From contig CANPYU010000022.1 of assembly GCA_947588665.1 (NCBI GenBank), forward strand, positions 1 to 11,802: 11,802 nucleotides of DNA, in the 5' to 3' direction. A program made the position numbers and the translations under genes. Shown in pieces: positions 5,580-9,468 of the stretch. The notes below the pieces were generated by a model. It saw only the letters and a program-made list of their open reading frames with translations. It was not told the origin of the DNA and ran no database searches. This DNA is from an uncultured Bacilli bacterium. Its GTDB lineage: Bacteria > Bacillota_I > Bacilli_A > RF39 > UBA660. Within the stretch, counting starts at the first letter, position 1. Each line of letters begins with the position of its first letter.

Positions 5580-5626
5580 GAAATTAGAATAAACAGGGCT
5601 AAAAATAATCTTTAGGAGGTTTTGTG

Positions 5627-6874
5627 ATGACTGATAAAAAAATTATTAGTATTAAAGTTTATAATATTAGAGAAAAAGAAGTAGTTTTAGATAGTGACTT
5701 AGCTAACGCGTACAATTATGAAACAAAATATTTAAATAGACAAGTCGAAAGAAATAAAGACAAGTTTTTAAATAGTTCCTATTTTAGATTAACCAATGAA
5801 GAATATGAACACTTGAGGTGCCAAAATGTCACCTCAAGTTTAACAAATTATGGCGGAAGAAGATATCTACCATACGTCTTCACTAAAGAGGGAATAGAAG
5901 TATTAAATACTATTTTAAAAACCCAAAATAAAGAAATAATAACTAAAAATATTTTAAAAAAATTTATTTCAGAAGATAATAATATTTCTTTAATAAAGCC
6001 CATAAATTCCGAGAAAATCACTAATTTAATATATGAAGTCCGTGGTGTTCAAGTAATGCTTGATATTGATTTAGCTCGATTATTTTCTTATGTTCAAGGA
6101 ACCAAAGCCTTAAATCAAGCTGTAAAAAGAAACAAAGATAGATTTCCCGAAGATTTTTATTTTCAACTTACTGCTGAAGAATTAACAAACTTGAGGTCAC
6201 AATCTGTGACCTCAAGTTTAACAAAATATGGAGGAAGGCGTTACTTACCATATGCTTTTACAGAACAAGGTGTGGCTATGCTAGCAACAATTTTAAAAAC
6301 AAATGAAGCAACCAAAGTTAGCATAAGTATTATGCGTGCTTTTGTAAAAATGCGCCATTTTATCATGGATAATAAAGTTATTTATCAAAGTTTAAATAAT
6401 ATAAATAATAAACTTAATGAGCACGATACTAAAATAAACGAATTATTCCTCAAATTTAAATCCAAAGAAGAAATAAATACTATCTTTTTTGAAGGGGAGA
6501 TTTATGATGCTTATTCTAAACTTGTAGATATTATGAATAAAGCCCAAGAAGAATTAATAATAATTGATAATTATGCTGATAAAACAGTTTTAGATATGAT
6601 AAAGAATATAAAAATAAAAGTATTATTAATAACTAGGGGAAGCTTATTAACGAATATTGATATAAGTAAGTATCAAGAACAATATCATAATTTAGAAATA
6701 ATATATAATGATAGTTTTCATGATAGATATTTGATATTAGATAGTAAGATTATATACCACTGTGGAGCTTCTTTAAATAAAGCCGGAAGAAGAACTTTTT
6801 CAATTAATAAATTAGAAGATATAAAGGTTAAAGATATGTTAATTCAAGAAGTAAATAAAATAAGAGAAATATAA
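5627..6874 (+). CDS. Tandem double ORF6N-domain DNA-binding protein with phospholipase-D-like C-terminus
   Basis: This 415-residue protein holds two copies of the ORF6N domain, at about 13-99 and 137-225. The copies share VxLDxDLA, RNKD+F, the LR(C/S)Q(N/S)VTSSLT stretch, YGGRRYLPY and FT(K/E)(E/Q)G. Domain 2 keeps the family ending FTEQGVAMLATIL, while domain 1 has drifted (FTKEGIEVLNTIL). A coiled linker (about 250-285) leads to a C-terminal module (290-415) with HDRYLILD (His365, Arg367, Asp372), an HxKx4D-like phospholipase-D motif with Arg for Lys. ORF6N domains are found in phage antirepressor-type regulators and stand-alone chromosomal genes; the target is unknown. AGGAGG (5614-5619) is 7 nt from ATG 5627 and only 4 from GTG 5624, so ATG is preferred. 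Usually one ORF6N domain is present. No other phage gene is nearby. Confidence 0.85.
   Translation: MTDKKIISIKVYNIREKEVVLDSDLANAYNYETKYLNRQVERNKDKFLNSSYFRLTNEEYEHLRCQNVTSSLTNYGGRRYLPYVFTKEGIEVLNTILKTQNKEIITKNILKKFISEDNNISLIKPINSEKITNLIYEVRGVQVMLDIDLARLFSYVQGTKALNQAVKRNKDRFPEDFYFQLTAEELTNLRSQSVTSSLTKYGGRRYLPYAFTEQGVAMLATILKTNEATKVSISIMRAFVKMRHFIMDNKVIYQSLNNINNKLNEHDTKINELFLKFKSKEEINTIFFEGEIYDAYSKLVDIMNKAQEELIIIDNYADKTVLDMIKNIKIKVLLITRGSLLTNIDISKYQEQYHNLEIIYNDSFHDRYLILDSKIIYHCGASLNKAGRRTFSINKLEDIKVKDMLIQEVNKIREI
5811..5839. repeat. Intragenic palindrome 1 in ORF6N domain 1
   Basis: ACTTGAGGTG (5811-5820) is the exact reverse complement of CACCTCAAGT (5830-5839). After one C/T mismatch, two more pairs (CA/TG) close on an AAA loop. 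It falls on the codons for the LRCQNVTSS stretch and has no T-tract, so it is not a terminator. Confidence 0.9.
6187..6219. repeat. Intragenic palindrome 2 in ORF6N domain 2
   Basis: AAACTTGAGGTCACA (6187-6201) is the exact reverse complement of TGTGACCTCAAGTTT (6205-6219), 15 bp with only ATC between. It lies on the codons for LRSQSVTSS, exactly homologous to palindrome 1. Confidence 0.95.
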
Positions 6875-7751: not shown

Positions 7752-8576
7752 ATGAACTGTAAAATACCTTTTACTAAAGATATAGATTTTGAAAAAAAAC
7801 TATATGAAATAACCAGTATAAGTCTTGAACATGAAATTAAAGTTGAAGAAAACACTTTAAAAGGTAATTTTATTATATCTGGTGATTTTAAAAGTCATGA
7901 AGTAAGTGTTAATAAAGAACCTTTCTCTTATATCTTACCATTTGAAATAGCTCTTACGGAGAACATAGATGAAAAAACTATTGAATTTATGATCGAAGAT
8001 TTTACTTATGAAGTAATTAAAAATAGTATTTTAAGAGTTAATATTGATTTTAACGTTATTGCAAGTCAAAAAGAAATTTCAAAAGTGGAGGAAGAAGAAA
8101 ATTTATTTAGAGAACCAACTGTAGAGGACCTAAATTTAAATTTAGAACCTTCTAAAGAAGAAAAGTTAGATGATACATATGAAGATAATCGTCTAAACAT
8201 ACCTTCAATTGATTTATCTGACTTACCATTTATAAAAAAAGAAGAAGAAAAACCAACAGAAAATACTGTTACGATAAACGAGGAGAAAACTATGATTCAA
8301 GAAGAAAATAAAGAAGAGTCTATAAAAATAAATGAGCCTATAAATGAATCACAAGAAGATAAAATTAATAAACTTAGCGAAGATACAATTATCAATAGTG
8401 TTAATGATGCCAGTGATGAATATGCAACTTATCACATTCATATGGTTTCTGATGGTGAATCAGTTGAAACTATTTGTACAATGTATAATTCCAGCTTAAA
8501 TATTTTATCTGAATATAATGATTTAAGTAATTTAACTCCTGGTGATAAATTAGTAATACCAGATAAAGATGAATAA
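7752..8576 (+). CDS. spoVID: SpoVID-like spore coat assembly protein with LysM domain
   Basis: This 274-residue protein has an N-terminal beta-rich domain (about 8-103: SISLEHEIKVEENTLKGNFIIS... then a second half ending LRVNIDFNV). It resembles the DUF3794/SPOCS-like N-terminal domain of SpoVID. A long acidic, disordered stretch follows (about 110-225), then one C-terminal LysM domain (226-270: YHIHMVSDGESVETICTMY ... LTPGDKLVIP). SpoVID helps the coat encase the forespore, in the mother cell. Bacillus subtilis SpoVID is about twice as long but has the same order, with LysM at the end, and is followed by ysxE, as here. The Shine-Dalgarno AGGAG is 8 nt from ATG. The overlap with the next gene and the sigma-E-like promoter support the call. 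Individual alignment is by eye, so similarity is moderate. Confidence 0.75.
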   Translation: MNCKIPFTKDIDFEKKLYEITSISLEHEIKVEENTLKGNFIISGDFKSHEVSVNKEPFSYILPFEIALTENIDEKTIEFMIEDFTYEVIKNSILRVNIDFNVIASQKEISKVEEEENLFREPTVEDLNLNLEPSKEEKLDDTYEDNRLNIPSIDLSDLPFIKKEEEKPTENTVTINEEKTMIQEENKEESIKINEPINESQEDKINKLSEDTIINSVNDASDEYATYHIHMVSDGESVETICTMYNSSLNILSEYNDLSNLTPGDKLVIPDKDE

Positions 8577-9468
8577 TGCATTAGAAGAACTAAAAAACAC
8601 ATATAAACCATATCGTTATACTAAAAAGAAAAATGTTACTATAATTGACTCTACCAGTGGTTCTTATGTTATAAAAGAAAAACAAAACAATAAAGTTGCT
8701 GATGTCTACAATTATTTAATCAGTCGTAACTTTGATTATTTTCCCAAATTAGAAAAAGAACAGCGATCAGATGTAAACGTCTTTGAATATATTGATGAAG
8801 TAAAAGAACCTAAGGAACAAAAAGCTAGTGATTTAATTGATTTAGTTGCTCTTTTACATAATAAAACCACTTATTATAAAGAAATAACTGAAGATAAATA
8901 TAAAGAAATTTATGATAATTTAAAAAATAATATTCTTTACAGTAAAAATTACTATGATAATCTATATAATATTATGATTGAAGAAATATATCCCAGTCCT
9001 AGTCATTATCTTCTTTTAAGAAACATTTATAAAATCTTTTCGGCTTTAGACTTTTGTGAAGAAGAATTAGATAATTGGTATGAAAATACCAAAAATGATT
9101 TAAAAGAAAGAATTTCTTTAATTCATAATAATTTAGAAACTGATCATTTTATAAAAGGGGATAAAGCTTACTTAATTAGTTGGGAAAAATCCAAACTTGA
9201 TTCCCCAATTTTAGATTTAATAACTTTTTATCAAAAAGAATATTTATCTTTAGATTTTGAAACTTTATTAAAGAAATATTTAAAAAATTATCCCTTAAAG
9301 GATAATGAATTAAATTTATTTATAATCGTTATTAGTATACCTCCCATTATAAATTTAGAAAATAATGAAATTAATGCAACTAAAGAAATAAGAAAAAAAA
9401 TAGATTATATTTTTAAAACAGAAAGTCTTGTCGCTTCCTTAAAGCCTAAAAATGCCGTGGATAAATAA
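8569..9468 (+). CDS. ysxE: YsxE/CotS-like spore coat kinase-fold protein, probably a pseudokinase
   Basis: This 299-residue protein starts inside the last codons of the SpoVID-like gene (8-nt overlap, ATGAATAATG). It has no strong Shine-Dalgarno of its own and is probably translated by coupling. The layout fits the CotS/YsxE branch of aminoglycoside-phosphotransferase-like proteins. An N-lobe has VIKEK (Lys36) and FPKLEK, a helical linker follows, and then a catalytic-loop equivalent at 184-194 (LIHNNLETDHF). In active members this loop reads HGDxxxxN; here the catalytic Asp is Asn and the Asn is His. The metal-binding Asp of the next motif is Ser (ISWE in place of IDFE). I infer loss of phosphotransfer. 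Position after a SpoVID-like gene is the gene order known from Bacillus and the best support. It overlaps the convergent small gene at 9446-9637 by 23 nt. Confidence 0.72.
   Translation: MNNALEELKNTYKPYRYTKKKNVTIIDSTSGSYVIKEKQNNKVADVYNYLISRNFDYFPKLEKEQRSDVNVFEYIDEVKEPKEQKASDLIDLVALLHNKTTYYKEITEDKYKEIYDNLKNNILYSKNYYDNLYNIMIEEIYPSPSHYLLLRNIYKIFSALDFCEEELDNWYENTKNDLKERISLIHNNLETDHFIKGDKAYLISWEKSKLDSPILDLITFYQKEYLSLDFETLLKKYLKNYPLKDNELNLFIIVISIPPIINLENNEINATKEIRKKIDYIFKTESLVASLKPKNAVDK

Follow-up and report, generated by a model that had tools for sequence, protein, structure and literature searches.

A 27-bp DNA palindrome in the codons of ORF6N domains from many bacterial phyla

The window, i.e., the whole stretch of DNA analyzed here, comprises 11,802 nucleotides of contig CANPYU010000022.1 from an uncultured Bacilli bacterium and is Bacilli-like, with a low GC content (25%). 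It contains a gene with two ORF6N domains in tandem, and in each domain the codons of one loop form a palindrome. These palindromes, whose pairs are numbered outward from the center (d1, d2, and so on), are the subject of this report. The gene and its parts are as follows:

5624..6874, forward strand: gene with tandem ORF6N domains, product of 416 aa (start GTG 5624) or 415 aa (start ATG 5627)
5636..5944, forward strand: ORF6N domain 1 (stretch aligned), with palindrome 1 in the loop LRCQNVTSS
5811–5839, no strand: palindrome 1, 27-bp element 5812–5838, center 5825, 12 of 14 pairs over d1–d14
6026..6292, forward strand: ORF6N domain 2, residues 135–223, with palindrome 2 in the loop LRSQSVTSS
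6187–6219, no strand: palindrome 2, 27-bp element 6190–6216, center 6203, 15-bp perfect arms (d2–d16) around a 3-nt center
6479..6871, forward strand: C-terminal phospholipase-D-like domain, motif HDRYLILD...GASLNKAG found by eye, boundaries approximate

The gene product belongs to the ORF6N family, as its match to the PF10543 profile, in two stretches, reached 200.2 bits (curated cut-off 27.8). Its N-terminal part resembles phage anti-repressors (phrog_4792 anti-repressor, E 4.2e-39), and among the matches listed the best two genome loci by protein similarity came from an uncultured Bacilli bacterium and Candidatus Onthousia. Structure comparison matched the fold of the C-terminal domain to TrmBL2, NucT, and Zucchini. 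The gene thus fuses a phospholipase-D/TrmB-like domain (6479–6871) to two ORF6N domains, with HDR in place of the HxK signature by inspection of the motif.

A preliminary description of the window had placed both palindromes at these positions, and a re-reading of the sequence bore out their coordinates and pairs. Palindrome 1 is paired at d5–d14 (ten pairs) as well as at d2 and d3, with mismatches at d1 (A.A) and d4 (C.T). The compensatory swap proposed between the copies, G5820:C5830 in copy 1 and C6198:G6208 in copy 2, is present. As described, it accompanies a change from TGC (Cys) to TCA (Ser) on one side and a silent change from GTC to GTG (Val) on the other; the Cys and Ser codons, however, differ at two bases and not at one, and owing to the second difference, at d4, copy 2 has an A-T pair where copy 1 has the C.T mismatch. 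The palindromes were also correctly said to use TTG and AGG against the preference for TTA and AGA: in the ten coding sequences of the window, TTG accounts for 16 and TTA for 219 of 326 Leu codons, AGG for 8 and AGA for 47 of 82 Arg codons. Selection on the protein alone does not predict such pairing, in line with the original argument, since none of 200,000 synonymous recodings of each loop (same amino acids, window codon usage) reached the observed 13/16 pairs in copy 1 or 15/16 in copy 2. Folded as single-stranded DNA, palindrome 1 yielded −9.3 kcal/mol (z = −4.6) and palindrome 2 −15.7 kcal/mol (z = −7.7). With up to three mismatches, the core pattern occurs only at these two sites in the window (four strand matches, 0.10 expected). 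In the predicted structure, palindrome 2 spans the codons in which a helix ends and a low-confidence loop (residues 192–202, pLDDT under 50) begins.

We therefore turn to the family as a whole. ORF6N genes were gathered by protein similarity, with 80 genome loci kept out of at least 588 related stretches, and complemented by a viral sample of 35 loci and by searches for the family in three phyla that are probably Bacteroidota, Pseudomonadota, and Bacillota (30 loci each; family present in 39 of 148, 37 of 249, and 18 of 245 genomes). Matching by a profile from our own alignment (A1), with loci found by palindrome pattern left out (L014–L081, L184–L232), defined 189 distinct domains; weak PF10543 matches (e.g., L289–L292) lie outside this profile and were counted with the antirepressor group introduced below, in which the palindrome is not universal. 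A palindrome with at least 9 of 12 pairs was found in the same loop of 188 of the 189 domains, and 173 had at least 10 pairs, a value reached by 2.4% of synonymous shuffles. When the center was slid along the whole domain, an excess appeared only at alignment column 100 (10.4 vs. 5.2 pairs), and all other columns stayed within 0.66 pairs above the shuffles. At this fixed center, 209 domains, pattern-selected loci included, averaged 10.51 of 12 pairs compared to 4.63 after shuffling (SD 0.10, 500 shuffles); without these loci, the mean was 10.4 pairs in 180 domains, 165 of which had at least nine. The check on other ORF6N genes that the preliminary description had put forward thus gave a very large excess of palindromicity. 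A palindrome inside the ORF6N codons is a general feature of the family across many bacterial phyla. The in-gene element comprises 27 bp (13+1+13) with a half-site of about YTTGAGGTCRCAA, set in the codons of a flexible loop.

Regarding the reading frame, 156 ORF6N domains carried at least 10 pairs in the main frame, which encodes LRSQxVTSS or a variant and has the palindrome center on the first codon base. In 16 further ORF6N domains, a palindrome of the same kind (e.g., GGTCACAAATTGTGACC) was shifted by one base, mostly encoding ELVTNCDRF-like peptides, and a single case with the center on the third codon base is probably spurious. A more distant antirepressor group, likewise annotated as ORF6N in E. 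coli records, has a different core, GTCCGAAWTTCGGAC and variants. With identical proteins collapsed (62 and 58 out of 80 loci), at least 10 pairs were present in 39 of 62 distinct proteins (shuffles 1.3%); among 58 distinct genes, scored at nine or more pairs, the core was read in three frames at the corresponding loop (SEIRT 30, VRNSDE 11, RPEFGL or STKFVP 4) and was missing from seven. A third, Rha-like group with the core CGTTTGAAACG or similar had at least 10 pairs in 10 of 19 (shuffles 2.8%). The palindrome is independent of the reading frame, and its core differs between protein subfamilies. A codon accident shared by duplication was excluded, as other genes hold different palindromes at the same place and other frames hold the same kind. 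As a separate observation, one Rha-type gene (L514, genome G234) contains two unlike perfect palindromes 39 nt apart with the core CGTTTGAAACG.

Across the 209 aligned domains, the arms covaried via synonymous bases and via amino-acid changes alike. The third base of the Ser codon tracks the second base of the residue three further on: TCA accompanies Val in 97 of 99 cases, TCG accompanies Ala in 26 of 29, and TCC accompanies Gly in 8 of 9. The Thr codon is ACC beside Arg (111 of 113) and ACT (24), ACA (16), or ACC (4) beside Lys, while Arg is encoded by AGA in 7 of 8 cases with Ile as partner. DNA pairing of codons thereby makes Ser–Val, Phe–Gly, Cys–Gly, and Ser–Ala show up as protein covariation. 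Changes between relatives were counted for the 195 domains with at least nine pairs at the fixed center, a selection that favors kept pairing, and in pairs of relatives that are not mutually independent: at 25–30% divergence outside the loop, there were 588 two-sided changes, 506 of which lead from one pair to another, and 296 one-sided changes, where independence predicts 243 and 1234, respectively. At 12.7% divergence (14 non-independent pairs), three two-sided and no one-sided changes compare to 3.0 and 40.5 expected. The element is therefore both conserved and compensated, the opposite of pairing lost as often as kept, which the preliminary description had named as the outcome that would speak for a codon accident. 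The view that palindromic codons merely descend from a common ancestor under a conserved LRxQxVTSS peptide is refuted by the shuffles and the other frames: this peptide is common in the family, but synonymous shuffles fall far below the observed pairing, palindromes of one kind encode peptides as different as RSQIVT and VTNCD in ORF6N and SEIRT, VRNSDE, and RPEFGL in the antirepressor group, and palindromes occur outside genes.

One locus could be followed through Dyadobacter, where 41 of 41 genomes match parts of the neighborhood of L160 and 40 stretches were read. Parsimony on 27 in-gene copies, some in interrupted genes, gave 17 two-sided paired-to-paired changes, 11 one-sided losses, seven one-sided gains (six at the center pair d1), and two others, so that pairing was kept more often than lost here too. 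At d7, both sides changed on four occasions, replacing G-C by A-T, and in three of the four A-T clades Ile (ATC) and Arg (AGA) replace Thr (ACC) and Arg (AGG). Outside the gene, copies of different species share the same arms (L460/L461, L466/L467), with flanks that agree at 0.6–0.8. Single-mismatch intermediates exist (L444, L466, L467), including single G.T intermediates among the outside copies. In genome G872 (L469), where ORF6N matched once, a span of 740 bp contains four copies that differ in their arms and have 12–13 of 13 pairs each. In L460 and, slightly different, in L461, a second inverted repeat, TGTATACAAT ... ATTGTATACA, was seen by eye just before the ORF6N start codon and is a possible separate operator.

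The extent of the element was similar in and out of genes, about 27 bp. In-gene pairing over d12–d16 was 0.88, 0.79, 0.55, 0.54, and 0.34, compared to 0.30, 0.29, 0.31, 0.42, and 0.28 in shuffles (209 domains). In 92 distinct copies outside matched ORF6N domains, pairing was 0.75 at d13 and then 0.46, 0.49, and 0.29; these copies were found via their first 12 pairs (10 of 12 needed), so that inner pairing reflects this threshold and only positions from d13 on are informative. For this set, duplicates were collapsed, sites at locus ends skipped, and unrelated or chance palindromes omitted by hand (L015, L020, L051, L063, L065, L073, L076, L120, L284, L286); some copies lie in antirepressor-group genes (L290, L341) or in decayed ORF6N. 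The half-site YTTGAGGTCRCAA is based on a logo from 68 outside copies.

A hairpin in the mRNA, acting on translation, RNase III cleavage, or a small RNA, is a highly improbable reason for the structure. Any coding palindrome can fold in mRNA, and the pairing is strong; an mRNA hairpin should, however, tolerate silent G.U pairs, and such choices are nearly absent (Arg with ACT 1/113, Val with TCG 1/99; 209 domains), which disfavors this option of the preliminary description. Mismatches point the same way: G.T is rarer than A.C in genes (19 vs. 46 among 2004 pairs, with 13 domains of fewer than eight pairs dropped) and in outside copies near ORF6N (13 vs. 19). No Rfam match was obtained in the six sources searched. 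A Rho-independent terminator would require a T run after the hairpin where a transcript ends; in-gene palindromes are not at transcript ends, and a check of intergenic copies gave A/T runs at L460 and L461 and none at L463. The palindrome is maintained as DNA and not as peptide, and apparently not as mRNA; ORF6N genes thus hold an established DNA-level element, shaped as DNA rather than as protein.

Further copies are located next to ORF6N genes. One was found within 250 bp upstream of the domain in 26 of 185 genes and within 250 bp after the stop in 8 of 172, and farther copies were rare; as detection requires 10 of 12 pairs (8 of 13 in the arm comparison within loci given below), fully decayed copies are uncounted. 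Arrays comprise four copies at exactly 34-bp spacing, the first within an ORF6N fragment (L258), and six copies downstream of one gene (L315); two or three in-frame palindromes share one loop in 6 of 189 domains. Outside ORF6N genes, a genome search for the palindrome core, as proposed at the outset, found few copies, and these were mostly at ORF6N loci. One pattern matched 28 of 148 Bacteroidota genomes, 20 of which have ORF6N; in the other eight, only G142 (L221) has a site with at least 10 of 12 pairs. A narrower pattern matched 12 of 245 Bacillota genomes, eight with ORF6N, and in seven of these eight (the exception being G485) the listed matches sit on contigs with an ORF6N match. Copy number was low, with at most nine matches and 0–6 listed places per genome. 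A palindrome without ORF6N nearby was found in L323.

Among uncultured-virus contigs, one strict pattern matched 68 viral stretches; by eye, about eleven of these matches sit in ORF6N-like frames, and the others include intergenic copies. In five contexts read (L017, L018, L027, L034, L050), CTTGAGGTCTCAAWTTGAGACCTCAAG is intergenic and lies within about 15 bp past a gene stop, with no ORF6N gene among the ORFs listed around it; the sequence also occurs in L060, L064, L069, L074, L079, and L081. Another viral contig (L037) has two unlike intergenic ORF6N-type palindromes around 7472 and 7514, 42 bp apart. A different class of palindrome, CAACTRTT...AAYAGTTG and similar, was seen near or at ORF6N gene ends (L083, L090, L124, L302, L274).

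Our main interpretation, drawn from sequence and predicted structure and given a probability of about 0.4, is that the palindrome is a putative DNA site for the encoded ORF6N protein, an operator carried inside its own gene, with arms kept by selection and hairpin-templated repair. We propose that the protein binds the element, given that the core follows the subfamily, that gene boundaries hold extra copies, and that the domain is winged-helix-like. Weak structural matches predict a winged-helix-like domain followed by a long helix, and the palindrome would encode the helix end and the low-confidence stretch at the expected position of the wing; no significant relative was found among solved structures. 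A mobile single-gene unit would thereby carry its operator within its reading frame, and the operator would arrive wherever the gene lands. When bound, the protein would either block transcription or mark the copies of its gene. The loop may tolerate very unlike peptides, so that other frames would be usable. The arms would be held complementary by selection for a symmetric or hairpin form, and template-switch repair would rewrite the second arm after a mutation in the first, thereby altering amino acids. The sites are distributed with the gene and near its boundaries, as an operator would need, and remnants persist without the gene.

Several observations weigh against an operator read by the encoded protein. 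Thirty control Rha genes (PF09669) were near null (8.20 vs. 7.69 pairs), with 26 of 30 below 10 pairs; the four that reach 10–12 pairs include at least three resembling the Rha-like subgroup. Presence is not universal, either: of the E. coli records read, five in number, two reach 10 of 12 pairs, two reach only 9 of 12, and one, a P1-like plasmid gene (L637), has no palindrome at nine or more pairs, and the antirepressor genes of genome G171 (L336–L338) have no strong palindrome at the loop. No flanking copy of the own core was seen at antirepressor-group loci, 159 of 185 genes have no upstream copy, and 10 of 18 ORF6N-bearing Bacillota genomes have no match to the narrow pattern. Moreover, palindromes can persist without the gene. 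A family test in 20 Dyadobacter genomes detected no ORF6N in 13, six of which retain palindromes at the old locus: L454 (13 and 13 of 13 pairs), L456 (12 and 10), L458 (13), L463 (13), L478 (11), and L464 (G863), where an even-centered palindrome remains after loss of most of the gene. The product is therefore dispensable at least in the short term. Stretches from the other seven genomes (L473–L477, L479, L482) have no palindrome at 9 of 13 pairs or more; copies can thus outlive the gene but also vanish.

Such remnants suit an explanation by mutation without function, in which template-switch (quasipalindrome) repair preserves the perfection of an ancestral palindrome that has no present reader. 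Palindromes are perfect in some interrupted genes (L359 12/12, L363 12/12, L469 position 436 13/13) and survive in genomes without detectable ORF6N, two-sided changes exceed expectation, and the arms of L464 extend to 24 bp (by eye), which might be a product of template switching. Compensatory changes are documented to arise by template switching (PMC8794818). We nevertheless consider this explanation unlikely. The element evolves more slowly than its surroundings (no one-sided change vs. 40.5 expected at 12.7% divergence, in the 14 non-independent pairs), outside copies keep identical arms while their flanks differ, the half-site sequence is kept across phyla and frames, single-mismatch intermediates exist, and some decayed copies have lost the palindrome (L360, L361, L368).

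The symmetry itself raises a further point against the operator. Sites of one locus are mostly unlike each other, and still every site is self-complementary: the two arms of a palindrome agree at 11.37 of 13 positions, and arms from different palindromes of a locus at 8.85 of 13 (201 sites in 78 loci; detection at 8 of 13 favors the former value). Two half-sites read alike by one specificity do not account for this, as independent reading would not force symmetry at degenerate positions; the arms are thus also coupled directly by pairing, through hairpin recognition or template-switch repair. A DNA hairpin read by structure, whose arms pair in a cruciform or when the DNA is single-stranded, as in replication, conjugation, or phage DNA, might be recognized by a recombinase, a nuclease, or the ORF6N protein, like integron attC or REP sites, and would serve ORF6N mobility or shuffling. 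Divergent yet self-complementary neighbors (the 34-bp array L258, the six copies of L315, the 6 of 189 multi-palindrome loops), a hybrid palindrome (L481 position 797) that combines two arm types, and truncated and decayed ORF6N copies beside palindromes are in its favor. The half-site sequence itself is, however, strongly preferred beyond pairing, genomes hold few copies, no insertion boundary was found, with no systematic recombinase search made, and L464 resembles a deletion of the gene and not an empty target; we regard this hairpin as a serious but rather doubtful candidate.

Returning to the operator carried inside its own gene, a broader speculation, which we hold to be improbable, would make antirepressor-type genes self-contained units of gene plus target. 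An in-gene mark, in any frame, would lead the product to copies of its gene and would be copied from arm to arm by template switching, dictating amino acids where the DNA-reading wing would lie. Reader and target would share bases and could change together in one step.

Elsewhere in the window, positions 3–449 hold the C-terminal part of a BclA-like protein (36.2 bits to PF18573, marginally below the cut-off of 38). At 7752–9468, a LysM-ending protein (PF01476) precedes a spore coat protein of YsxE-like type (96.8 bits to TIGR02904, short of the cut-off of 263.55), a gene order known from spoVID-ysxE.

In a widespread regulator family, a DNA element takes precedence over the protein sequence, and does so across bacterial phyla. 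As loop residues covary because bases pair, and not through residue contact, coevolution-based structure methods and protein trees could misread the loop. The element offers a test bed for the origin of compensatory two-base changes (template switching vs. stepwise selection) and for what ORF6N and antirepressor domains bind. If the product binds its own gene, this would be a new regulatory design, with an operator travelling inside a mobile gene whatever the frame.

Intragenic operators such as lacO2 and galOI are dyad-symmetric protein sites in coding sequence with auxiliary sites outside, and one operator sequence serves one repressor. The ORF6N element, whose operator role is putative, is similarly a dyad-symmetric site in coding sequence; unlike lacO2 and galOI, it is present in nearly every member of a cross-phylum family, and the differing palindromes at one locus are each symmetric. 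PARCELs also are coding DNA with dyad symmetry, tandem copies, sporadic bacterial distribution, and suspected mobility, but consist of tandem arrays of a 25-residue amphipathic motif. The ORF6N element measures 27 bp, usually occurs once per domain in one antirepressor-family loop, and has a frame-independent sequence and compensatory arms; more than one palindrome was found in only 6 of 189 loops, and it encodes a helix end and a low-confidence loop and not a tandem 25-residue repeat. Rickettsia palindromic elements share palindromic DNA placed in frame inside reading frames, but are about 150 bp long and occur in many unrelated genes (PMC10969869); the ORF6N element is tied to one family and its surroundings, with pairing that ends at d13–d15 and copies in ORF6N loops or mostly at ORF6N loci. 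REP/REPIN-RAYT systems likewise comprise short DNA palindromes, also beside a gene family possibly acting on them (PMC3116915, PMC8266576); REPs are high-copy, whereas the ORF6N element has at most nine matches per genome, many of them in-gene. Template-switch maintenance of hairpins would explain the coordinated two-sided changes and is described for RNA genes (PMC8794818), while the present case concerns DNA in protein genes. No description of the in-gene ORF6N palindrome was found in the open-access literature, outside which most subscription journals lie, and in the accessible part of an ORF6N-domain paper both mentions of palindromes concern CRISPR (PMC6591296). None of these known systems, i.e., PARCELs, Rickettsia palindromic elements, REPs, and the lac and gal intragenic operators, has the combination of features found in ORF6N genes.
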